Source: Micrasema longulum
Taxonomy: Eukaryota; Arthropoda; Insecta; Trichoptera; Brachycentridae
Assembly (NCBI GenBank): GCA_022494885.1
Contig: JAGVSM010005005.1
Span: 62,001-126,000, forward strand
DNA: 64,000 bases
Direction: 5' to 3'
Part shown: piece by piece, positions 526-51,600 of the stretch
Layout: each line of letters begins with the position of its first letter
Numbering within the stretch: the stretch's first letter is position 1
Notes under the pieces: model-generated
Told to the model about the DNA's origin: nothing
The model's input: only the letters and a program-made list of their open reading frames with translations
Databases searched by the model: none
Position numbers and translations under genes: made by a program

Positions 526-1256
526 TATCTTTATTAAAGAGTTAAATGTATTTATACAAAACAGAGGTAAGGATAGTTAATTTAAAGCTATATGTAAGTA
601 TTTACTTAAATTTTTAATAAAGTTATTTTTATCTTAAGGATGATTACAAAAATTTTTTTTTGGGTTAACTAATGAGTTGATATAATGCTATTTTAATGAG
701 TTTAAGTATTTTATTTTATTTTTAGTGTCCCATCCTTCGTGAGTGTGGTTTTGTAAATAATGATTTCTGAAAAACAAAGGGTAAAAAGTCGTTAGTAAAA
801 TTATATTACAATGGAGAATGCACGTGTGTTATCTGTTCATTAAGTAATTCTACGTCATTAAGTATGTTCATTAAGTAAGTCTACATATATTAATTGATTA
901 AAAAATAAACCCGACGTAGAATTGCTTAATGAACAGATAACACAAGTGCCGTGCCGTGCATTCTCCATTACTTTACCCATTGTAATATAATTTTACTAAC
1001 GACTTTTTACCCTTTATTTTTCAGAAATCATTATTTACTAAACCACACTCACGAAGGATGGGACACTAAAAATAAAATAAAATACTTAAACTCATTAAAA
1101 TAGCATTATATCAACTCATTAGTTAACCCTAAGAAAATTTGTTGATAATGATCCTTAAGATAAAAATAACTTTATTATATTTACTTACATATAACTTTGA
1201 ATTATCTATCCTTACCTCTGTTTTGTATAAATACATTTAACTCTTTAATAAAGATA

Positions 1257-1299
1257 CCAGTCTCGAAGATGTCGTGAAAGCGATGAAACCGGTCACTGG
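1257..1299 (+). ncRNA. Degenerate hammerhead-like motif, foldback right arm
   Basis: Mirror copy of the left-arm motif: CCAGT, CTCGAAGA, a poorly paired stem II, GAAACCGGTC, ACTGG. Stem I is perfect; the CUGANGA box carries an extra C. Probably a decayed ribozyme or descendant of one. Confidence 0.35.
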
Positions 1300-1365
1300 A
1301 TATTCCAAATTTGTGGATTAAAGTATCACTCCTGTTTTATTTATTTAATAAAAAAGCATTAATAT

Positions 1366-1422
1366 ATCTTCAGGTGTACCACAGGGTGCTCACCTTGCTC
1401 CTTTGCTGTTTAATCTATTCAT
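1366..1422 (+). pseudogene. Jockey-type LINE reverse transcriptase, segment 2
   Basis: Encodes ISSGVPQGAHLAPLLFNLF, the conserved RT block before the catalytic YADD/FADD motif. It continues the reading of segment 1 and is broken at 1422 by a minus-strand LINE insertion. Confidence 0.7.
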
Positions 1423-2141
1423 TTATTTATTTTAAAGAAACAAACAGTTGACAATGATATTATATTTTTTCGTTTTCAAAATACAGTTTAAAGACAGACC
1501 AGCAAAGTTTCTAAATAAAAATCATATATATTATTAAATTGTGTTACAACAAAAGGATGTGTTTATGTGTATTTGTATGAGAGTAAGTGTAGATACGTGT
1601 TTATGTGTATTAGTGTGGGAGTAAGTGTTCAGGCGTGTGCATCATTAAATAGTAAGTGGGATCGTATCGCAGCCAGAAATAATAAGTCTTAATTTATTTT
1701 TAAATAAATTAAGGGGCATGTAAAATATATCAATAGATAAAAAAAAACATTATAGTTAGAGCAAGAACGATAGAGGAAAGAGTGTTGTGCATAGTTAGTG
1801 CTACAGACTGGCAGATGGAATAAATACTTATTTCTTGTCACGTGCATGGGGACATTAAGATTAATTTTGGAGAGTAGGTTAAAAGAGTCTACTTTATTAT
1901 TTAATCATTTGTGTAAAGAGTATAATTCAGATACAGTGCGTCTAGTTTCAAGGGTAAAAAATCCATTTTGTTTGGCAGATTGGCTGTAAGTACTAAGCGT
2001 TTTATTGTTTTTATAATGTAGGTATTTTAAAAATTTACGTTGAACATTTTCAATCCTTTCTATGTTTGTTATGTACAGCGGGCTCCACACGACAGATGCA
2101 AACTCACATTCATCAATGATCCAAAAAATGTTTTTCTTCAT
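1418..2141 (-). mobile_element. Minus-strand Jockey-type LINE fragment nested in LINE
   Basis: The minus strand at about 1905-2144 encodes ASVVWSPLYITNIERIENV followed by QRKFLKYL, the C-terminal part of a Jockey-like RT. A 5-base repeat TTCAT flanks the insert at 1418-1422 and 2137-2141. The part at 1430-1900 shows no recognisable coding and is probably 3' untranslated sequence. Confidence 0.55.
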
Positions 2142-2361
2142 CAATTTGGCTGATTGCTGACGATACTAAGATTCTCAAACAGACTGAGAGCCCTTCTGAT
2201 TGTTCACTATTACAATCTGAGTTACTGTCTTTTGGCGCCTGGTGCTCATCCAATAATCTACATCTCAACTTAAGTAAGTGCGAGGTTATGAGATTTTTTT
2301 CATCTGGAAAATCCAATCATTCACTACTCACTGAACGATGAAATATTATCATCTGTGTCTA
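2142..2361 (+). pseudogene. Jockey-type LINE reverse transcriptase, segment 3
   Basis: Encodes LIADDTKILKQTE (catalytic ADD motif kept) and LSFGAWCSSNNLHLNLSKCE, the next conserved RT block. It is cut at 2361 by an RTE-type insertion and resumes at 3030. Confidence 0.7.
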
Positions 2362-3029
2362 CTACTACTACCATCACGCCATTTCTCCGTAGGGGTAGGC
2401 AGAGAGAATGGACCGCCACACACGTCTATCCTGGCATACATTCCTAGCTTCTTCCACATTCATACATCTTGTCATACATGCCCTTCGGTTCTGTCTGCTT
2501 TTGACATGACCAGACTTAAGATTTTGGTTTATCTGATCATGCCACGTCTTCCTTGGTCGTCCTCGTCTAACGTTGCCGCTCATTTTCGCCATATATACTT
2601 GTTTTACCATTCTTTCGTCGTCCATTCGTTCTACGTGACCAAACCATCTCGGAGACCCTTTCTTAATCTTATCAGTTATAATTTACTCAGATTTACACTC
2701 TCGCCTGATTTCATCATTCGTAACCCTGTCATACATTGATTCCCACACATTCGTCTAAAAGATTGCATTTCAACCGCGTTCACTCGGCTTTCATCCTTCC
2801 TCTGCCAGTTCCATGTTTCACTTCCATACATAAGTGTTGGGACTAAAACTCCGTTGTGCACTGCCAGTTTAGTTTCGATTGACATATTTTTATTAGAAAT
2901 TACTGTGCTTAGTGCTCCGTTCATTTTGTTGCCCGCATTCACTCTTCTTTCAACATCTTTTTCTACTCTTCCATCTCTTGAAAACATGCTTCCCAGATAC
3001 GCAAATTCTTCTACTATCATCTGTGTCTA
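2347..3029 (-). mobile_element. RTE-type LINE 3' fragment with 15-bp target-site duplication
   Basis: The minus strand encodes two parts of an RTE-clade C-terminus: FAYLGSMFSRDGRVEKDVER ... VLVPTLMYGSETW (about 2676-3020), then RRGRPRKTWHDQI ... VWRSILSAYPYGEMA (2374-2600). The direct repeat TATCATCTGTGTCTA at 2347-2361 and 3015-3029 marks the insertion; it interrupts the plus-strand LINE. 5'-truncated, as usual for non-LTR elements. Confidence 0.8.
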
Positions 3030-3700
3030 GTATAGAGATTTAGGTATTATACTTGACACCTAACTTTCTTTTACAATTCATATCGAACATGTTTTCGATA
3101 ATTCCTCAAAACTCCTTGGATTTATTAACAGAGGAACAACTGACTTAAAAAATATCAATATTAATATGTTATTGAGAAATTTTGATAAAAAGTTTATATT
3201 AGTTCTTAAGATGTTATGAACTAACTTAATAAAGCATAAATAAATAAATACCCATAAAACTTTCTTCTATTCCCTAGTTCGCCCGCACCTAGAGTGTTCC
3301 TCTGTTATCTGGTCTCCATATTATGATGTTCACATCAAAAATATTAAATCAGTTCAACATCGATTTTTAAGAAAGATAGGCTGGAGGTTGGGCTTATCCA
3401 GAAACTAATGTAAGAATAATGAGTTAGAAACTAGCTTGAATATATCTTCTCTTCGAGACCGCTAAAATAAATCTGACCTTATAGTCCTATTTAAAATTCT
3501 CAACTCACTTTTCGATGCGCCTGAACTACTGAGCTCGATAAAACTAAATCGCTGAATCAAATTTAATTATAAACACCTCTCTCCCGCTTCCACTCCCACC
3601 GAGTCTACTATATACCATTGTGTCTTTCTACTTTCCTTTGTAATAATTTTCTATGTATAATTATGTCCTTAAAAATGCCCATCGGGCGTATTTATAAATA
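3030..3700 (+). pseudogene. Jockey-type LINE reverse transcriptase, segment 4 and 3' end
   Basis: Resumes with DLGIILDT, SSKLLGFINRGTTDLKNIN, then SLVRPHLECSSVIWSPYYDV and SVQHRFLRKIG, the typical C-terminal part of this LINE type. About 80 bases of AT-rich sequence near 3170-3260 interrupt it. Ends in an A-rich tail near 3690. Confidence 0.65.
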
Positions 3701-4097: not shown

Positions 4098-4261
4098 CTG
4101 ACATACTGAGACACAGCCTCGTCTTGGTCTTGAAGCGGCCGTTGGGGGTGAGCATGTAGATGGAGGGCGGCCTGAAGGGGAAGTCCCGCGGGAACACGAG
4201 CTTGCCGTGGTAGAAGCCGCCCTCGTACGGACTGTGTTCCGGACCCTTCACCACAAAGTGC
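4098..4261 (-). CDS. UBE2J2: UBE2J2 coding exon 2
   Basis: Acceptor CAG just after 4261 (minus reading ...TTCATCAG then GCACTTTG) and donor GTCAGT at 4092-4097. Encodes 54 full codons from HFVVKGPE to RLCLSMS with the E2 fold core, including the catalytic Cys region. Phase 2 in, phase 1 out. Codons are GC-rich against the AT-rich flanks, as expected for a conserved exon. Confidence 0.93.
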
Positions 4262-7200: not shown

Positions 7201-10200
7201 GATTTTTATAAAAGCTGTAATTTATCACAGATTTCCAGAATACCACTCTGGACGAGCGCTTTAGTCTCGATGGCTAGTCCGGATTAAAATCCCGTACAGC
7301 GATCGACGCATTAGTCTACCACGCTCGAGGTCGCGGGTTCGATTCCCGGGATGCTCGACGTAAAATATTGTTCACGTTCCTGGACTGGCACCCGAAGCGC
7401 GAGGCTCAGCGCCTCAGGAGGGTCAGTCGGTGAGGGTCCCGAGGAAGAGACGGGAACGTCTCGAAACCGGTAGACATAAAGAGTCGGTGAGCGGTTACAA
7501 GCTAATATTTACTGACATTAGTTAATATTTAATCAATAAAACAACTTCATCATCACTTAAATCAACATTAAAGTCTTTGTAACTGAGTTCACTGTCACAC
7601 TGTCGGGGGATTTGAGAAATCACTCTCTCCGGGTTAAACGGACTGACTCCGCAGCTTTCGAAGCCGCCCAGAAGCTTCCGTACGGCGTTCTCCGAGAGGA
7701 GGCAACTCCGGAACAGGCTCTCGATCAAACTCGGAAAGTCTTCTAGGCTCAGGAAATCTCGGTCAGAAGTGTTCCCGTCGAACAGACGTACCAGCGATGC
7801 GCGCCAAGCGCACGTCAAGGTTTTTTCAAAATCGTAAGCCAAAGGTTGGCAAAACTGGCGCAGATTGTGAGAAATGCTCAGAAAACAAACGTCGTTTTCA
7901 ACGGCCGTTGAAACTGTGAGGCGGTTCATATGTCTCGAGATGTTGTCGCTCAAAAGAACCACTTTTCCGCTCGCGTCGGCGGCGTTCGCGACGAAAATAT
8001 TCTTGAACCACTCAGCGAAAACTACGTTGTCCACCCATCCGGTTTTATTAACACTGTAAGAGACGTTTTGCCGATCTTCGACGGATATATAATCCGCGTC
8101 TTCCGATTTGAACACCGCGTGGATGGGGAGCCAGGAGCCGGAGGCGGACCCGCAGACGATAATGGAAACACTCTCGACGCTAGATTCCGGTATTCGACTC
8201 AAATATCTCAGGTTTCTTCTCGTAACAACTTTTTCGCAGTCCAAACTGCCGCTGAGATGGAACTCTTCGAAACTGAATATCCGGTCGTCGGGTACCCTCG
8301 AACCTTCGCCGTCTCGTAAGGAAGACTCGAGAAATTTTAAATAAGATATCGCATCGTCTTTGAGCGCAAAGCTTTTGGATATATTCGTGCTTCGCCGCTT
8401 GCGAAGGGTCAGGTTGTTCCGAGATAGGAACGATCGCGCCCACTCTGATCCCAGTGCGTTTTTTCGCCGCGTCGATATCGGCGTATTGATAGATGTTTGC
8501 ATGTAATCGCGCGCCATCGTCCGGACATCGTTAAGCGTGCACGTAAAACCCCAGCTATTGATCTTGCTAAAATAATCCACTAAATTGTCCTCTTCCGTTT
8601 TGCTCAGGGTGTGCGGTCGGCCGATTTTATTTTCGTGCCTTTTGTGGATCCGATTTAAGAGCGTTCCTTTTGAGATATCGAAGAGTTCGGACGCTCGTGA
8701 CAAGCTCGACTGTCCCGTTTCTATGGACTTCATAGCCCGGTCTAGTTTTTCTCTAGTTGTGCTGTTATAGCGACGTATTTTGGGTGGCACGTTTTTCTCG
8801 GTCGGCGCATTTTCAGAACTGAAATATAAACAACACTCACTTTAGTTTGTTCGCTAATTTCCCGGCACTTTTCGAGCAAGTCACTCGGTTCGATAGGCCT
8901 TCATCACTCGTCACACAGGGGCAATATTTTCGTCACTTAAACACAAAATCACCGCTGACTGAATGCGTTAATTTGCTATTGGAATCCATCTTTTTAAACG
9001 AAAGAGACGTCAGAATTCCCAACATCGGAACTAACGAGGGTAGGTTGGAAGATTCCCCAGAGGGAGTGAGGTCACTAGCACTATAATGAAAGCATCCACC
9101 CCTTTCCTGAAACTGTTCATAAAGACATATGTCTTTCTTCAGTTTCGCATATCACTATCAATTTTTTCAAAACTAATTAAGTGAAAATATAATATATCTT
9201 TACAGTCAAACCGCGAAAATAACAAAATAAAGAAACTTTAAAATCTTTCATTGTACCCCTCACCGCAGTATTGTCAATTTGTGATCAATCAAATACACAT
9301 GGTCAGAACTATCAGCTTTTTATAATTTCTCAGTATGACAGTGAAGGAATACAGTGTTAGTTTCAAATTGAGACCGCGGCCGCACGCTCCAGATCCCGCC
9401 TTCGAAAGGAAGATAAATGTAGTAATACAAACAAATCAAACAACGACACAAAACCCAAATACATATAGGAAACATTAGAATAATTGGCCCTATACAACAT
9501 GCGCTCGAGCAACAGAAGAAAAACAATACGTATCTATACCAAATCACAGAGGAATATCAAATTATCAAGACACTACCGGCAAAATCCTAACACAGATCCT
9601 AACATGATCCCTATCGAACTCAGGCGAAATTACTTCTCGTCATAACACTGAATCCCTCGCAAAAACCATTATCCTAATATTAACAGTAGAAACAATCCTA
9701 GGCAAAGACCCTAACCGTTCTAACAATCTCTCAGACCTTAGAGCAGACGAAACGGGTCTTAGAGCGTGGTCGGCGCGTGGTTCTCTCGAGTTAGTCTACT
9801 ATTTAGATTTGTAATTTACCACTTCCCTTCTATGGGACAAGAACAACACAGACGGACGAGAGTTCAGTTCAGACAACTGATGCTAGTACCCAAGTATGTA
9901 TCCTTTAATCTTAAACTGATTTAGTACTCATGGTAGGCCTTTACCCAGTTCATCCCATTTTTCCACCCATTCGCTCACAAAATGAAAAAATGCTTCAACG
10001 TTAGTTGGATTAGCCAATAAGCACTAGCACTAGTGTGTACACCGAGTATCGGCATAAACGAGTAAAAAAACTTCCAAGTAAGACCTGAATAGGTGAGGCG
10101 ATCTGTAAGAAATATCGAGCACGAATAAAATTGAGATTAGAGCTGTCATAAAATTTCTCACTAAACCGAATATATCACAGCACATTATTTGGAAAGATAT

Positions 10201-11139
10201 GTCAACAGTATACGGGGGAATCTTGGCCTGGGAAAATCATTACGTTCGGCTGTACTCTCGCTGTAAGTTCTCGCGAGTTCTAAGGTTTTTTCCTTCTTTT
10301 AAAGTTAATAAGTTAAGGTTCCTATGGCGTACATTGAAGAACTGTTATAGAACGGTAATGTACGCGTGTGCAACATAACAACGAACCAAAAAGCGGTACA
10401 AATAAACAAATTTACTCATTAAATTTATGTATTTTATTTAATTGTATAACTTTTTTAACACTTATTTTAATGAAGTCGTAAGGTTTGACAGTAAAAATGC
10501 CTAGTTTTTGGCGTTTTGAAGTAAACGGGGGCTAGATTACTTATTGTCCATGCGCTCTGTAGCTGCAAGACGTGCTGTAATCTAGCTCCTATCTGTTATA
10601 ATTCATATACATCATAATTGGAAAGGAGGAACTAGAATCGTCCATGCGCTCTGTAGCCGCAAGACGTGCTGGGATATTTATTTATTATACAGCGCCCTCG
10701 AGGTGATTTTCACAAAAAGGCGCTATATAAATTATCCAACTATAACTATAAGAATAAAAGATTATGCATCTTTTCTTAGTCTATCTCGCTTAAGCCACGG
10801 TTTCACCAGATTTGGTATTTTTTATACAAATTTAGGGGTAAAACGCAAAACATGTACGGTAAAGTGAAAACCATAATTAGTTGCATGGTTTTCAGTGTGT
10901 AAAAATTATTTTGGTCTCCGTATTCTCGTTCGGATATTTAATTTTAAAGAGCGATAGTAGGTATCTCCCCATCTCTGTTGAGATACTCGCGGACCGATTA
11001 GAGGTTTGGATATTTACCATTCGAGGATGTTGGAGGGCACGGGTTCCGCCACCACGTAGGGAATTGGGTCCCCCTTGATTCGCAGGTAATCTTGCTTTAA
11101 TCTGCTGTTTGTCGCTCCGGAATTTTTGTACGAAGACAT
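4098..11139 (-). CDS. UBE2J2: Ubiquitin-conjugating enzyme E2 J2-type gene, 5' part
   Basis: Two coding exons join in phase (exon 1, 122 nt, ends in TG; exon 2 starts with G, giving Trp) to encode the first 95 residues of a Ubc6/UBE2J2-type E2. Seen: RLKQDYLRIKGDPIPYVVAE, PSNILEW, GPEHSPYEGGFYHGKL, FPFRPPSIYMLTPNGRF, TRLCLSMS. The family anchors by a C-terminal tail in the ER membrane and ubiquitinates misfolded proteins (ERAD); the catalytic Cys is in the conserved TRLCLS block. The remaining exons (continuing with the expected D after SMS) lie left of position 1. The 6756-bp intron 1 (4262-11017) holds LINE fragments, a SINE and a pogo-type transposase ORF in the same orientation. Confidence 0.93.
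4355..4420. repeat. Fragment of TTTACAGGGCT-type MITE
   Basis: TTACAGGGCTCGAGATCCGT followed by a GTTTAAGTGGCC block resembles the arms of the complete element at 26506-26680 and related pieces near 47.2 and 48.05 kb. One decayed copy. Confidence 0.4.
5620..5895 (-). pseudogene. RTE-type LINE C-terminal fragment
   Basis: Minus-strand translation keeps EIEEDRERHGM (a shifted version of RRRPRKTWHDQI), DVEEARTVCKDL, and across a stop ILSAYLYGE, the same ending as the RTE copies at 2.4 kb and 17.0 kb. Multiple frameshifts. Confidence 0.65.
6085..6915 (+). pseudogene. Jockey-type LINE RT C-terminus
   Basis: Plus-strand reading: LGILFDNKLKFNHH, SKICGFILQISN, then (after a hairpin insertion) ITLYKSFVRSLLEFNSIIM, and later NCIDAHGVLAQINLDVPRLN and NLSLNGTVDVF. 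This order is typical for the C-terminal third of Jockey-like RTs. Several stops and shifts. Confidence 0.7.
6190..6318. repeat. Inverted repeat (45-bp arms, 39-bp loop) inserted in LINE
   Basis: Arms at 6190-6234 and 6274-6318 are almost perfectly complementary (TACTCGTATGCAGAGACAAA and its reverse complement with one or two mismatches). The hairpin interrupts the LINE reading between ISN and the SSKIAITLYK block, so it is a mobile snapback or MITE-like insertion. No coding content. Confidence 0.7.
7255..7430 (+). mobile_element. tRNA-derived SINE copy
   Basis: Contains a B-box-like GGTCGCGGGTTCGATTCCCG, followed by GACGTAAAATATTGTTCACG and CCTGGACTGGCACCCGAAGC, the order seen in other SINE copies here. 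The A box is weak. It runs directly into the hammerhead-like motif at 7434-7477. Confidence 0.6.
7434..7477 (+). ncRNA. Hammerhead-like motif (GAGACG/CGTCTC stem II)
   Basis: Order: GGGTC (stem I), CCGAGGA (CUGANGA box with U4 changed to C), stem II GAGACG-GGAA-CGTCTC (six pairs, GNRA-type loop), GAAA, ACCGGT (self-complementary stem III), A (cleavage H), GACAT (stem I return). A homologous copy occurs at 51131-51177 on the minus strand; together the copies suggest an ancestral 5-bp stem I GUGUC/GACAU. The U4 change makes present activity uncertain. Confidence 0.5.
7522..8790 (-). CDS. Pogo/Tigger-type transposase-derived ORF, candidate domesticated
   Basis: A 422-codon open frame without stop or frameshift. 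Residues about 8-52 form a psq/CENP-B N-terminal helix-turn-helix, about 60-135 a second CENPB-type DNA-binding region (GSEWARSFLSRNN), about 170-330 a DDE_1-type catalytic core, and the family motif GVSPFNP lies at 381-387. Catalytic acids are altered: position 175 is Glu in IFSFEEFHLS (family Asp), Asp282 is kept in LLSDNISRHMN, and the third site is Ala318 in QPLAYDF (family PLD). The first codon shown (8788-8790) is GTG; between an upstream in-frame stop near 8842 and this codon there is no ATG, and the first internal ATG is codon 20, inside the helix-turn-helix. It sits in intron 1 of UBE2J2, same strand. GC content is higher than its flanks. Either an expressed domesticated gene fed by splicing, or a young relic. 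Confidence 0.85.
   Translation of the reverse strand: MPPKIRRYNSTTREKLDRAMKSIETGQSSLSRASELFDISKGTLLNRIHKRHENKIGRPHTLSKTEEDNLVDYFSKINSWGFTCTLNDVRTMARDYMQTSINTPISTRRKNALGSEWARSFLSRNNLTLRKRRSTNISKSFALKDDAISYLKFLESSLRDGEGSRVPDDRIFSFEEFHLSGSLDCEKVVTRRNLRYLSRIPESSVESVSIIVCGSASGSWLPIHAVFKSEDADYISVEDRQNVSYSVNKTGWVDNVVFAEWFKNIFVANAADASGKVVLLSDNISRHMNRLTVSTAVENDVCFLSISHNLRQFCQPLAYDFEKTLTCAWRASLVRLFDGNTSDRDFLSLEDFPSLIESLFRSCLLSENAVRKLLGGFESCGVSPFNPERVISQIPRQCDSELSYKDFNVDLSDDEVVLLIKY
8819..8848 (-). promoter_or_regulatory. Candidate 3' splice site feeding the transposase ORF
   Basis: Minus strand reads CTAAA (possible branch site), then TTGTTTATATTTCAG and exon sequence from 8818. The first base T plus the TG left by UBE2J2 exon 1 would make TGT (Cys), followed by SENAPTEKN and the transposase frame without a stop. 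So UBE2J2 exon 1 spliced here gives an in-frame fusion. The match is visible in sequence; use of the site is inference. Confidence 0.45.
8850..10520. other. UBE2J2 intron 1, no recognised gene
   Basis: AT-rich except 8850-9110, which has mixed composition and may be leader sequence of the transposase element. A C- and A-rich stretch at 9420-9720 has no recognisable coding. I found no matching terminal repeats or TA duplication that would delimit the transposase element. Confidence 0.4.
10527..10671. repeat. Direct repeat of 32 bp inside a partial inverted repeat
   Basis: GTCCATGCGCTCTGTAGC followed by YGCAAGACGTGCTG occurs at 10546-10577 and 10640-10671. Around the first copy GGGGGCTAGATTAC and GTAATCTAGCTCCT are inverted. 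The block between (CTAGCTCCTATC ... GGAAAGGAGGAACTAGAATC) also recurs at about 28208-28270. Unclassified dispersed repeat. Confidence 0.6.
11018..11139 (-). CDS. UBE2J2: UBE2J2 coding exon 1 (start codon)
   Basis: ATG at 11137-11139, then SSYKNSGATNSRLKQDYLR ... PSNILE and the first two bases of Trp; donor GTAAAT at 11012-11017. Forty complete codons plus two bases, phase 2, matching exon 2. The N-terminus is as long as in known UBE2J2 proteins, so this is the likely start. Confidence 0.93.
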
Positions 11140-17471: not shown

Positions 17472-17916
17472 CATGGCAAGTTACACAATTAAACAGCACG
17501 TTCAAACGATTTTTTTATTATTATTAATATGAGTGTTCGTTAGTGCAAACGTTACGCGCATTGCGCCCATTTTACGGTAGACGTGGTGGTCCTTCACAGT
17601 CAACTCTTCAACGTTTGTTGACCAAATTTAAGACGACCGGTTCGGTAATCAATCAGTCAACACCCGTACGTTCAAGGAACGCAAGATCGGCCGAGAACAT
17701 CGCCGCTGTCTGCGAAAGTGTACAGCAGAACCTGAGGCAGTCGATTTCTCGCCGTGCACAAGAACTCGTCCTTTCGCAGACTTCAACTTGGCGAATATTG
17801 CGTCGGGACTTAGGCCTACACCCGTACAAGATCCAACTGACCCAGGAGCTCAAAGTTCATGACCAAAGACAACGCCGTTTGTTCGCTGACTGGGCTTCAA
17901 ATCGTTTGGAAGACGA
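17472..17916 (+). pseudogene. Mariner-type transposase, 5' part, truncated
   Basis: Begins MASYTIKQHVQTIF, then after a frameshift QTLRALRPFYGRRGG, STLQRLLTKFKTTGSV, ENIAAVCESVQQNLRQSISR, LGLHPYKIQLTQELK, RRLFADWASNRLEDDP: the paired DNA-binding domain of a mariner transposase. The reading is cut before the first catalytic Asp, exactly where a tRNA-like sequence starts (17917). Confidence 0.85.
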
Positions 17917-17990
17917 CCCCTCACCGGGAATCGAACCCAGAACCTTCCGTGCGCGAGTCAAGCGTCTTGACCACTACACCACGGAGGCCG
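17917..17990 (-). mobile_element. tRNA-like sequence (SINE head or tRNA relic)
   Basis: Minus strand starts GGCCTCCGTGGTGTAGTGGT (box A TGGTGTAGTGG) and has box B GGTTCTGGGTTCGATTCCCG. The acceptor stem ends are GGCCTCCG and a poor partner, so a functional tRNA is unlikely. It is fused to the mariner fragment on one side and a MITE on the other. Confidence 0.6.
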
Positions 17991-18016
17991 CCATTGATTT
18001 GATATTGATTCATATA

Positions 18017-18363
18017 CAGAGTGTTCTTTAAACCCTGTCACATCCGAAACCACGATGATCAGTAAAAGCAAGAAGATATATTAGCACATTAAAAAAAATA
18101 TTTAGAACAAAGAAAATAAAAAAAAATAAAAAAAACAAATGCTTTCTTGAGAAGCGAGGGGGGCGCGACTGTGAGGTTGACGGTGTATCAGACTTCCCCG
18201 CCCTCATCCTCGTTTCTCCCCAGCAGAAGTAAGCAACCATTTGTTTTATTTTATTTTTTAAGATTTTAGTCGTTCTAAAAAAATATTTTAATTTGCCAAT
18301 ATGTCTTCTTGCTCATACTGATCACCGTGGTTTCGGATGTGACAGGGTGCAAAGAACATCCTG
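18017..18363. mobile_element. MITE A copy 1 (347 bp, TA duplication)
   Basis: About 85-bp terminal inverted repeats starting CAGAGTGTTCTTTAAACCCT and ending in its complement, flanked by TA on both sides (18015-18016, 18364-18365). No coding. TA target and termini suggest a Tc1/mariner-driven nonautonomous family. Second copy at 36914-37263. Confidence 0.88.
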
Positions 18364-18514: not shown

Positions 18515-20060
18515 ATGCTTCTACCACCACCTGTTGATTTTTTGGCGATGTTATTATTTTTATTTGTAATAGGCAGGCAGCCTTTGCTGATGCACCTATA
18601 TCTCGTGTGCTACTTTTGTCTAAGTTTTTCTTCCTTCAAAAAAGCATCCAAACGGTTTTTGAACTGGTTGACCGAAATGGAATGGGCAAGTAGACTTGGT
18701 AGTTTATTCCAGTCTGAAACTACCCTGCTGGGAAGAAAGTTTTACTTGGGATCGAGGTGGAATTGGGGTCGATAGAGCTTCCAGTTCTAACCCCGTAAAT
18801 TTGTGTTGGGATTTAATTGGGGGCAATAAAAGTAATTATTGAGTATCTTATAAGTTTCTATTGAGTCCCCTGTCTTGCTTCTTTCTTCCAATGATGTAAG
18901 TCCCAGTGCTTTTAATTTACCGTGGTAAGGCATCTTTTTGAGTAATTTGTGGATTTTCGTAGCACACCTTTGGACTTTTCCAATTGATCAATGTCTTGAG
19001 TGAAGTAGGGACTCATACGTGATATCCATACTCCAATAAAGGTCTCACATAGGCCTTGTATATTTTAAGAAATACATCTGAAGTAATATTTTGGAATGCC
19101 TTTTTAATCAAATAAATTATTGACTCAGCTTTCTTGGCAATAGACGTGATGTGAGCTTCCCATTTTAAATCCATCGATATGATTATGCCGAAATCTTTCT
19201 GATGCTTTACGGGTTTGAGTTGGACACCACCCGAAAGATAAGTATATACAGGGTTGTTGTTGCCTATGTAAAGGTAGGTATATTTTTCAGCGTTTGGCGA
19301 GATTTGCCAGTTTTTGGTCCATTCATTGATGTGGTCCAAATCCTGGAGTAGTTGTCCAGAGCATTGAAGGGGGTTTGCAAACAGTTCGGTGTCATCTGTA
19401 AAGATACTCGATTGAGATTTTACGACTGTTTTGGGATCATCAATGTGTAAGATGAAGAGGATCGGGCCGAGGACTGAACCTTGTGGAACGCCGCTGAGTA
19501 CGTTATGTTCTGTAGATAAGGTGTTGCCTATTTTCATTGGAAAGATACGATTGTTCGAGAAAGCTTCAATCCTCCTCAGTAGCTTACCACGGATACCCGA
19601 GTGCTCCAACTTCTTGACCAGTCTTTTAATTGGAACACGATAGAATGATTTTTTTTAATTCAAGGTACATCCTGTGGATTGTGATTGTCATATTCCTCAG
19701 TGCAGATATCTAAACATTGTAACAAATTGGTGACAGTAGATCTCTCGGGGACAAATCCGTGTTGATCTTGGATTATAATTTGCTTCTTCTGTAGAAACTC
19801 CCTTAAATCTTTGACAATAACTTTCTTCATGCACTTACAGATGATACGAGTGAGACTAATAGGTCTAGTTTACGGGTCCGGTTTGTCGCCTTTCTCGAAT
19901 ATGGGCGCAACAATTGCTCTCTTCCATTCTGATGGTAATTCTCCAGTCTCAAACGTATGTTGCACGAGTAATGATATAGAGAGACTCGGGGCAGTTGCCC
20001 ACTTCTTTAATAATATTGTAGTTACTCAGCAGAAAAATGTATTAGAATGGTCCATCGCTA
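18515..20060 (-). pseudogene. CR1/Jockey-type LINE reverse transcriptase
   Basis: Minus strand: QTFETGELPSEWKRAIVAPI-like block near 19.93 kb, KVIVKDLREFLQK, IQDQHGFVPERS, HSGIRGKLLRRIEAF, GVPQGSVLGPILFILHIDDP, SIFTDDTELFANP (catalytic ADD changed to TDD), KDFGIIISMDLKWEAHI, AYVRPLLEYGYHV, then a degraded tail with KMPYHGKLKALGL. A 198-codon central part is open. It begins within about 20 bases of the TMEM145-type stop codon, so it probably lies in that gene's 3' UTR. Confidence 0.85.
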
Positions 20061-39885: not shown

Positions 39886-40180
39886 TCGTCATCATCATAA
39901 TTCCCTCTGCGCAACTAATGATGCATAGGGCACTGCATTGGTACACCAATCGCAGCGTAGACACGCGTAGATTAAGATTGATCATTTTCGTTACCTGAAG
40001 GTAAGATGATCAGTCTTACGCTTCATGTAACCAGTAGGTGCCAGTCCGGGGACTGTGAAATATTCTAGTGTAAAAACACCCTTTAAAATAAATATTTCAT
40101 ATCAACCATGTCGGGAATCGAGCCCGAGACCTTTCGCACGGTAGGCAAACGCGCCGACCATTACACCATGAGCCGAGAAT
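39886..40180 (-). mobile_element. tRNA-derived SINE, near full length
   Basis: Minus orientation: head TCGGCTCATGGTGTAATGGT, box B GGTCTCGGGCTCGATTCCCG, body, hairpin ATTGGTGTACCAAT, tail ending in ATGATGATGAC-like repeats. One of the best copies; its A and B boxes are both recognisable. Confidence 0.88.
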
Positions 40181-46259: not shown

Positions 46260-46445
46260 AAAGAAAATTGAGCCCCTTCGGCCCAATCAGCACTTCCGCC
46301 TACCGCGCTTGAGGCCCTGTGTTCGATTCCTAGGAAGGTTGACGTGAAATATTGATTAAAAAAGTGATTCTAAAATGCAATATTTTATGTTCCCGGACTG
46401 GCACTTGAAGCGTAAAGCTGATAACCTTACCTTTGTGCAGTGTGT
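46260..46445 (+). mobile_element. tRNA-derived SINE, 3' truncated
   Basis: Box B-like GGCCCTGTGTTCGATTCCTA, then GGTTGACGTGAAATATTGAT and GTTCCCGGACTGGCACTTGA. The 3' hairpins are missing. Confidence 0.7.
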
Positions 46446-48636: not shown

Positions 48637-51600
48637 CTGGACAGAGAAAGAGAGAGACTCGTGAACCGAAGGTACGTGTGTATATTTCATGCGGGACAAA
48701 TATGTTCTTTACGAGTAAATAAAAGGATGAATAATAAACATATTTTAAAATCTGTTGTTTCAAACCGTTTCTTATCGTTCATTTTTCTATTTTTTTAAAC
48801 ACAATTTATAGTATTTCATTATGAGATTGGATCATTCTATTACTGTCCCTGCAACTTAATGATAAAAACATTAAAAGAGTTGATGAATGTAAATACCTCG
48901 TCAGTATGATTACCGAGTCGCTAGACCCAGATACGCAGATGAAATGCACAATTGAATCAGCACGAATCAGCAGCTGTCTTCAACGAGACGAGCTCACTCT
49001 TTTGTGACTTCACCACTGTACTTCCTAATTGTGTTAAATACATTTTTTCCTCTCTTTACCGATCGCAGTAACTTTGCCAGTCAAAGTACAGTGAAATATT
49101 AATGTGAAAAAATCATATTTATCTAGATCCTCTCCTTTGCATCGGTTTCCGAGGAATAGCAGTAACAAAAGTATCACCTGATGAGACACGTCACGGAGAT
49201 GAGGAGCAGCAATACTCCCAGCGCTATGAGGGTGTAGCTGAGGACGGCCTTGGCTATAGGGGGCACCTTGGTGGCCAATCGCATGAGGCTCGTTACCTCC
49301 TCCGGTAGTCCGTCGATACCCTGCAACGATACAGCAAACTTCAGCAAATAAACTAACAAACCATCGCGAGGATAGAACGCGCTTGGACCGACACTGTATT
49401 CCACTACAGTCATACTTCATATTTCCTACTAGAAAAATATGGTAGTACTGACCGTGTGTAGATTAAAAGGTTACTTTACTGCACTGAAGGGTAAAACGTA
49501 AATGTTTCTTCAAATTTTGGGTTCAATTAAAACAAATATGTAGAAAATACGGGAAAAAAGATGGAATAAAACAGTTTATGTAGATTTAAATGAAACTGCG
49601 CTGCGATTATGAGCGCTATTTTCCCCGGTACATATCGAGACAGTATAAATTAACGTTCATATGTATGTCCGAAAATGTTATATTTGTATATAAATTCAAT
49701 GTATCTTTATCGGTAACCTGTAATTGAAAATGTTTAGAAAAAAAAAAATTGTAAACATATTATATTTTCCATACAGAAAACTCAATTTTACTTTGTAGAT
49801 AAAATTGTAGATAAATTGAAACTTCCCATTAGAGCAGGTTAAGTTGATTCTAGTTACTGTCCAAATAATATTAATTGTTTTATAAATTTGCATAAACCGC
49901 TCTAATTTTCATTTAAACGTTGACCGATTTCGAGGTTACTTCCTCACCATCGAGAGTTATACTAACATTAACACGTTCGCATTAAATCATGCCAGCAGTC
50001 AGCAGTCAGTCTAAAAGATATCGGTAGTGAGAAGATGGAAGGAGGAGATATTGTGTTTCAGTGTGTTTTCATTTTGTTTATTCGTACCAGTTCGATTAGG
50101 CGTTTGAAAATTTGCTCCTAAAGGAATAAAAAACACCTAATGAGGGTATACAATATATGCATGCATGCGCTATTCCTTCGCTGTATGTGTGCGTCTGTGT
50201 GTATGCACTTCGTAAACGATGCGAGGTTTGTTTATGTTCGTAAAATAAGAAATATTGAAAAAAATTTAAAGTTATGTGCAAATCCTACGAGAGTGGGCTC
50301 TTTTAAGGGTTTTTGGATGGTTTTAGCTCCCGCAAAATAAAAATTAAACCAAAAATAAAACAATGACGGTGGATCTATAGTTTGTAAAAATATCAACGCT
50401 CTAGTGCCACAGTTCAGGGAGAAAGTACGCCAATAAAAGTCAGACCTCCTAATATCTCGAAAAGCAAAGAAATGAATTGAGCCCGTTTTAGCCGTGTGCT
50501 CTTCATTTCTTCTGTAACAATTAAAGGATAGATTCGTTCACCTCCTGGAACCATATGATGGGGAACACGATGTCCGGGAAGTTGGCCACCTGCTTGATGT
50601 CGATGACTTGCGACACGGCCAAGTTGATCTGCACTCTCGCTCTCGCCGACAGCGCTGTTCCCATTTCCTGAAATGCAAAAGTCGTATGGCAACGGTTAGT
50701 TATGAAATGAGCACACAGATGTAGCTTGCGAATGTCTCGGACAGATTCAAAGTTTGATGGAGTTGAACATAGTTTATAAAATTCAAATATAAAAATTTAA
50801 ATAAATCATTTTAATTTTCAGTTATTCATCGATCGGTTTTGAGGTTACTTCATCGAGACTTAGAATCCCTCGCGTCAGTATTTGTATTATAAAATATTTA
50901 AATAGAAATATAAACCTACGGGAGAGAAAAAAAAAGAATCAAAAAGGGAATATTCTCGGGAGAGGACTAAGGTTAAATTATGGGTTGTTCTCGCTTAATT
51001 ATGGGCTGTGGACCGTGAGGACCGAGACTACTTAGTTCTCATCTCAAATAATCCTTCTTTAATGAATGAAAACTAAATGCTTAAATTGATGCTTGTAAAT
51101 TATAGTATATAGCCACTTACGGACTTTTTATGTATACCGGTTTCGAGACGTACCCGTCTCTTTGTCGGGACACTCACTACGCTAACATGCCAATACTAAA
51201 ATACAATTTCACCTTTACCATCACCGTAGTATACGTAGTATTTACGAAAAAATACACAATTGACACGCAAAGTTAAAGGAAATGCAAACACCACCATGTC
51301 CGAATGTGCGCTAAAATTAGGTTAATAATATTTAGTTCTAGATATGTTGCGGAATGTGTGGGGGTGGAGGGTTAGAGAGGGGAGGGGCTAAGAGGTTTAA
51401 TGTTACACGATTGATTAATTTCTAAATCAGAAAGTGGGCTGTATTGAAAAGATTATTTATTTTATGTTAGTTGAAAACTAAATGTTTGTGAAAATACAAA
51501 GAAGACTTCTTTGCAGAATTTCAGAACAGTTTTCACCTCCAACGGTCGGAAGAGAGAAAATGAATAAGTAATAAGTGAGTCACTTACGGGCTGCACGTCA

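Follow-up and report, generated by a model that had tools for sequence, protein, structure and literature searches.

A pogo-type transposase reading frame in UBE2J2 intron 1 is predicted to be spliced in phase to the first host exon

A pogo-type reading frame that has remained open lies in sense orientation on the minus strand within intron 1 of UBE2J2, and we predict that it is joined by splicing to UBE2J2 exon 1, giving a UBE2J2-led fusion of the CSB-PGBD3 kind. We consider this the best single explanation of the locus, at a probability of roughly 55%. The analysis covers a window of 64,000 nucleotides, meaning the whole stretch of DNA presented here. Across the predicted junction 11018/8818 the product would consist of 40 UBE2J2 residues, a Cys, the nine linker residues SENAPTEKN and the transposase, in total 472 amino acids with a single terminal stop; the predicted junction peptide lies around NILECSENAPTEK.

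The reading frame and its host gene

Counted from a GTG, the ORF (7522–8790, minus strand) comprises 422 codons without an internal stop; counted from the first complete codon that follows the acceptor, the frame is open over 431 codons (8817–7525) and closes with the stop at 7524–7522. The next in-frame stop upstream is found at 8844–8842. A chance ORF was ruled out, as 21.9 stops are expected from base composition and the two other sense frames indeed contain 21 and 23, versus none in the ORF. The combination of an HTH of the psq/CENP-B type with a DDE_1 domain points to a pogo transposase as ancestor, and the ORF is 33% identical over 389 columns to a pogo family consensus. A structure model built on a 35-row alignment (mean pLDDT 77.3, pTM 0.72) has chains of the Mos1 and SETMAR transposases as its top structural matches, 15 of which reach an E value of 0.001 or lower, with TM-scores of 0.36–0.66 by target length. 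Searches with the ORF brought up no scoring relative among database proteins, and none among the PDB sequences, viral contigs or genome contigs covered. Neither Rfam matches nor tRNA genes were found in the window.

The C-terminus of the ORF is about 70–90 residues shorter than in most of 29 relatives. A SINE-like repeat directly follows the stop (7303–7512), parts of which recur at 40091–40157, 46300–46354 and 51095–51177 with 73–82% identity; this repeat may be the cause of the shortened end. Motifs of the polyadenylation type, as motif matches only, are present near the end of the ORF at 7533 (ATTAAA) and 7513 (AGTAAA).

The host gene is complete, since UBE2J2 exons 3 and 4 are present on the same contig just beyond the window edge; no frame breaks were seen in its exons there. 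Splice sites were scored with a general consensus matrix, not trained on the host species, which gave 5.83 for the exon-1 donor (GTAAAT) and 7.1 for the exon-2 acceptor (exon start 4261). UBE2J2 has a GC3 of 0.723; in its joined form it shares no more than 66% identity with any of the 25 top-scoring proteins among 120 listed. Among these 120, out of 950 proteins matching UBE2J2 exons 1–2, no fusion protein was recognized by name or Pfam domain. None of the listed UBE2J2 proteins exceeds 81% identity, so the UBE2J2 of the species itself is not among them; as the ORF also has no scoring protein relative, the missing fusion protein says little.

Within intron 1 a 35-nt direct repeat, 94% identical, is located at 10543–10577 and 10637–10671 with a spacing of 94. 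Elsewhere in the window, translations read by eye suggest an N-terminal fragment resembling Tc1/mariner (17543–18031, plus strand) and a fragment resembling reverse transcriptase (19013–19609, minus strand). A TACCGTA motif at 17579 (minus strand) resembles the start of pogo TIRs.

UBE2J2 exon 1 is coding, lies on the same strand directly upstream of the ORF and ends in the phase required, so that host and transposase exons would be in phase across splice sites that look usable (donor 5.83, acceptor 6.05). Seven other exons in the intron with an ATG, an end in phase 2 and a donor score of at least 2 were detected, the best donors scoring 5.22, 4.57 and 4.48; they encode short peptides. By this comparison UBE2J2 exon 1 fits best as the upstream exon of the ORF. 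The first-pass annotation had described the uninterrupted ORF on the gene strand in intron 1 and its open join to an exon ending in phase 2, and both descriptions were confirmed. It had also put the chance of phase agreement alone at one in three. We uphold this judgement and regard the agreement by itself as suggestive.

Table 1. Positions of the features discussed, in window coordinates.
Feature	Position	Strand	Basis
Coding portion of UBE2J2 exon 1 (122 nt; final TG, phase 2)	11018..11139	-	tblastn with UBE2J2 proteins; translation
Putative donor for a 5' noncoding exon belonging to the element (GCG/GTGAGG)	9262..9263	-	score 9.9, best within 900 nt
3' splice acceptor before the ORF	8819..8833	-	score 6.05; same placement in same-genome pogo clusters
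Proposed terminal exon: 431-codon pogo-type ORF and stop	7522..8818	-	open frame; Pfam domains; single copy
ATG at the start position of relatives, out of the ORF frame	8808..8810	-	alignment, translation
HTH_psq DNA-binding domain	8632..8757	-	Pfam PF05225, E 1.7e-7
First catalytic position: Glu184 (GAA), Asp in relatives	8266..8268	-	120/120 listed relatives, 9/9 same-genome loci
DDE_1 catalytic-domain match	7789..8172	-	Pfam PF03184, E 2.3e-11; Mos1/SETMAR-like fold in model
Second catalytic position: Asp291, retained	7945..7947	-	alignment to relatives and same-genome loci
Third catalytic position: Ala327 (GCT), Asp in relatives	7837..7839	-	120/120 listed relatives, 9/9 same-genome loci
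ATTAAA hexamer, possible polyadenylation signal at the ORF end	7528..7533	-	motif scan
UBE2J2 exon 2, normal partner of exon 1	4098..4261	-	tblastn, splice scoring

Splice acceptor and start codon

The acceptor at 8833–8819, called good in the first-pass annotation, ranks 13th of the 377 AGs in intron 1. Twelve other intron AGs thus score at least as high, which counts against the fusion. We considered a chance site, given that 13/377 AGs reach this score with the acceptor itself included, and find it unlikely in view of the layout of pogo elements in the same genome. Of 59 other matches in the assembly, 49 were taken as loci (10 omitted); 8 of the 49 had no tblastn match and the remaining 41 formed 12 clusters, with up to three copies examined per cluster. 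An acceptor scoring at least 5 was located 0–20 nt before the first ATG in 8/12 clusters, or 8/11 of those with a readable ATG, compared with a background of 160 among 2184 ATGs in the window. The corresponding binomial values of 3e-7 and 1e-7 are nominal, as the clusters are related elements. Four clusters have no acceptor this close: L023, L046, L003, whose best site is 37 nt away, and L027, in which no ATG was read. One member of the set, L002, is a full-length pogo element (positions 931–3411 of that locus) with TA-flanked TIRs agreeing at 19/20 bases, a D-D-D triad and a stop-to-stop frame of 541 residues.

This placement suggests an exon-trap lifestyle for the pogo clusters of the genome (L002–L010, L013–L052), and the acceptor at 8818 is probably inherited and transposon-borne. 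As far as the sequences can tell, the locus thereby presents the arrangement of a PGBD3-type exon trap, in which the transposon brings its acceptor just ahead of the transposase start.

The start Met of the relatives aligns with Ala4, residue 4 of the 431-codon frame. The GTG that the first-pass annotation took for the natural start was therefore ruled out, while its remark that the ORF has no ATG between the upstream in-frame stop and the GTG proved correct. At the position of the relatives' start there is an ATG (8810–8808), 8 nt behind the acceptor at 8818, which overlaps the Ala4 codon out of frame and whose own frame closes after 22 codons with the stop 8744–8742. The first in-frame Met of the ORF is residue 29, within the first HTH helix of the model. 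As assembled, the full ORF consequently has no start of its own, and since ATG 8810 is off-frame its full-length translation requires an upstream coding exon ending in phase 2.

A donor-like AAA/GTGAGT occurs at 8840, 22 nt before the acceptor, and the frames on either side (8818–8840) would join in phase. An intron of 22 nt from this GTGAGT to the acceptor was dropped as too short, with a better donor available at 9263.

That donor bears on another reading of the locus, namely an intronic, domesticated pogo gene that is independent of UBE2J2 and has a promoter and a 5' exon to itself, for instance an exon with its end at 9264 that is joined to 8818. Its score of 9.9 is higher than that of the UBE2J2 donor (5.83), so that it could serve an independent transcript, which again speaks against the fusion. 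It lies 445 nt upstream of the ORF exon, and strong donors are found 201–468 nt before the acceptors of the relatives L002, L005 and L019 as well, although the stretch scanned for them was 900 nt, long enough for a good match to arise by chance. However, the exon ending at 9264 is absent from the ATG-bearing phase-2 exons and cannot supply an in-phase ATG. A nested gene would have to start at ATG 8810, which supposes that the frame shift stems from an assembly error, or at some other unrecognized start; as assembled, ATG 8810 is off-frame and yields 22 residues, and the first in-frame Met is only residue 29. The shift is confined to about 36 nt in which five A stand in a row, and young copies in the same assembly do differ from one another by single bases in A-runs. 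An assembly error near the start is possible; if there is one, the fusion would lose its frame and the nested gene would be the preferred reading. A coding-potential scan for a first exon gave a best value of 9.3, inside the null of 42 pieces (8.6–87.8), but the scan is weak, as UBE2J2 exon 1 itself reaches only 10.9. In all, we regard the nested gene as rather unlikely.

The predicted splicing of UBE2J2 exon 1 to the ORF, in turn, gains support from an acceptor placed as in the pogo relatives and from a native start that is off-frame. The fusion proposed in the first-pass annotation therefore stands as regards the phase, which is real; what changes is the view of the acceptor, which is probably carried by the transposon and not a site arisen by chance.

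Transposon copy or host gene

The triad of the ORF reads E184-D291-A327. All 120 listed relatives, the best 120 of 2451 found with the family consensus, carry D-D-D, as do the 9/9 same-genome loci first returned; among the 12 clusters nine show D-D-D and in three the match stops short of the whole triad. By alignment, then, the ORF lacks the intact triad of an active pogo element. Likewise, no TA-flanked TIR around the ORF rose above Markov nulls, of which 57, 24 and 38 of 60 reached the best match at lengths of 16, 20 and 25, respectively, so the ends of an active element with their TA duplication also seem to be missing. A possible TIR remnant at 10861 (TACCGTA) was rejected, as the motif occurs four times on the same strand of the window and is indistinguishable from chance.

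In the assembly (584 Mb, 5184 contigs) the ORF is single-copy: a protein search that scored only the best candidates (97 of 102) returned 60 matches, one of them the ORF at 100%, while the other 59 share no more than 29% identity with it. Young copies should have close sisters, as in the cluster of L005, which is 98.5–99.8% identical to six other copies in the same genome; in this respect the ORF is unlike a young mobile copy. Its GC3 of 0.564 is gene-like and far from the transposon copies (0.386 for L002, 0.293 for L005 and 0.29–0.43 for the listed same-genome frames of at least 95 codons) and from the surrounding intron with 37–38% GC.

We also asked how the ORF compares with its relatives at conserved positions. 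The ORF is changed at 39 of the 78 columns that at least 95% of the relatives conserve, and single relatives differ at 1.4 on average and at 5 at most, although the columns were chosen on those same relatives, which are near the family consensus. Identity between ORF and relatives is 26% in HTH_psq, versus 35% among the relatives, and 28.5% in the DDE core, versus 61%. Measured against the relatives' own level, identity is thus best kept in HTH_psq and worst in the DDE core.

These data can be set against the possibility that the ORF is a dying or dead copy, either an old or divergent remnant or a former domesticated gene, startless and open by chance. The off-frame start, the short C-terminus, the absence of a TIR above chance and the lack of a scoring relative in the protein database would all agree with such a copy. 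Simulated neutral decay to 39/78 changed columns, on the premise that the losses arose after mobility had ended, took about 450 substitutions and left a mean of 9–11 stops, with at least two stops in all 400 runs, and such a history is hard to reconcile with the frame observed. After 20 neutral substitutions, half of the simulated copies were still stop-free (7% when indels were included at an assumed 0.1 per substitution), so the recent death of an already divergent copy remains compatible with the simulation. The GC3 of the ORF argues against a dead copy as well, and altogether we hold this reading to be improbable.

In summary, domestication is well supported, because triad loss coincides with an open frame, a single copy, no TIR above chance and gene-like GC3. 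Single copy, open frame and lost mobility signals are what a domesticated gene would be expected to present. The ORF is likely a domesticated transposase retained by the host, a statement that covers the fusion and the nested gene together; the evidence from triad, copy number and GC3 is shared by the two. Taken together with stops, TIR and domain identity, the same features fit a domesticated DNA-binding protein.

Proposed origin and comparison with known systems

We propose that a pogo element landed in UBE2J2 intron 1 together with its own 3' splice site, acting as an exon trap. The native start would then have been put off-frame by an indel located after the ATG and before the first helix, leaving the ORF in frame with exon 1, while catalysis would have been lost and the DNA-binding half retained. 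The ORF is predicted to function as an alternative 3' terminal exon that receives UBE2J2 exon 1 by splicing. Exon 1 would be the source of the promoter, the start codon and a leader of 40 residues. It would not supply E2 activity, since the fusion would contain neither exon 2, which carries the E2 active-site segment, nor the C-terminal membrane anchor of UBE2J2. More tentatively, and with somewhat less confidence than we place in the fusion itself, pogo elements of this genome may be natural 3'-terminal exon traps, one of which is now an obligatory UBE2J2 fusion and a new DNA-binding regulator without its own start, catalysis or ends.

A search of open-licence papers turned up nothing on UBE2J2 together with a transposase and no account of this locus or of an insect pogo fusion of such kind. 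If true, the prediction would bring host-transposase fusions to a lineage where that search yielded no such case, and its form would explain its own origin, from a transposon with its own splice acceptor to the loss of the native start. The locus further suggests that the exon-trap layout known from piggyBac can extend to pogo elements; how an intronic insertion turns into a fusion gene thereby becomes a question that can be tested across the genome.

The closest parallel is CSB-PGBD3, where, according to the reports that describe it (PMC2268245, PMC3902484), a transposase frame likewise lies in sense in a host intron as a single terminal exon in phase with a host exon. In PMC2268245 the 3' splice site of PGBD3 is placed 7 nt before the first Met and is termed an exon trap; in the UBE2J2 intron the distance to the ATG is 8 nt. 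In contrast to PGBD3, which belongs to piggyBac, the present ORF is pogo, two of its catalytic Asp are replaced and its native ATG is off-frame, so that a product of full length would require the host exon. For CSB-PGBD3 a fusion transcript has been proven, whereas the UBE2J2-led fusion is predicted from sequence. Host-transposase fusions by transposase capture, as cited in PMC8700633, have a host exon spliced to the captured transposase, as is predicted for UBE2J2; the UBE2J2 leader, however, is a fragment of the UBC fold and not a whole domain, and this fusion is a prediction only. Finally, the domesticated pogo genes of vertebrates, named in PMC7386202 as CENP-B, JRK/JRKL, TIGD2-7, POGK and POGZ, resemble the ORF in being pogo-derived with HTH and DDE_1, and several have lost catalytic residues: according to PMC7325037, TIGD2 is mostly DD34S, TIGD6 mostly DD30N and TIGD3 DA30P in mammals. 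With no scoring relative from the protein search, the ORF would be of independent origin, and unlike these genes it would start in the exon of a host E2 enzyme.
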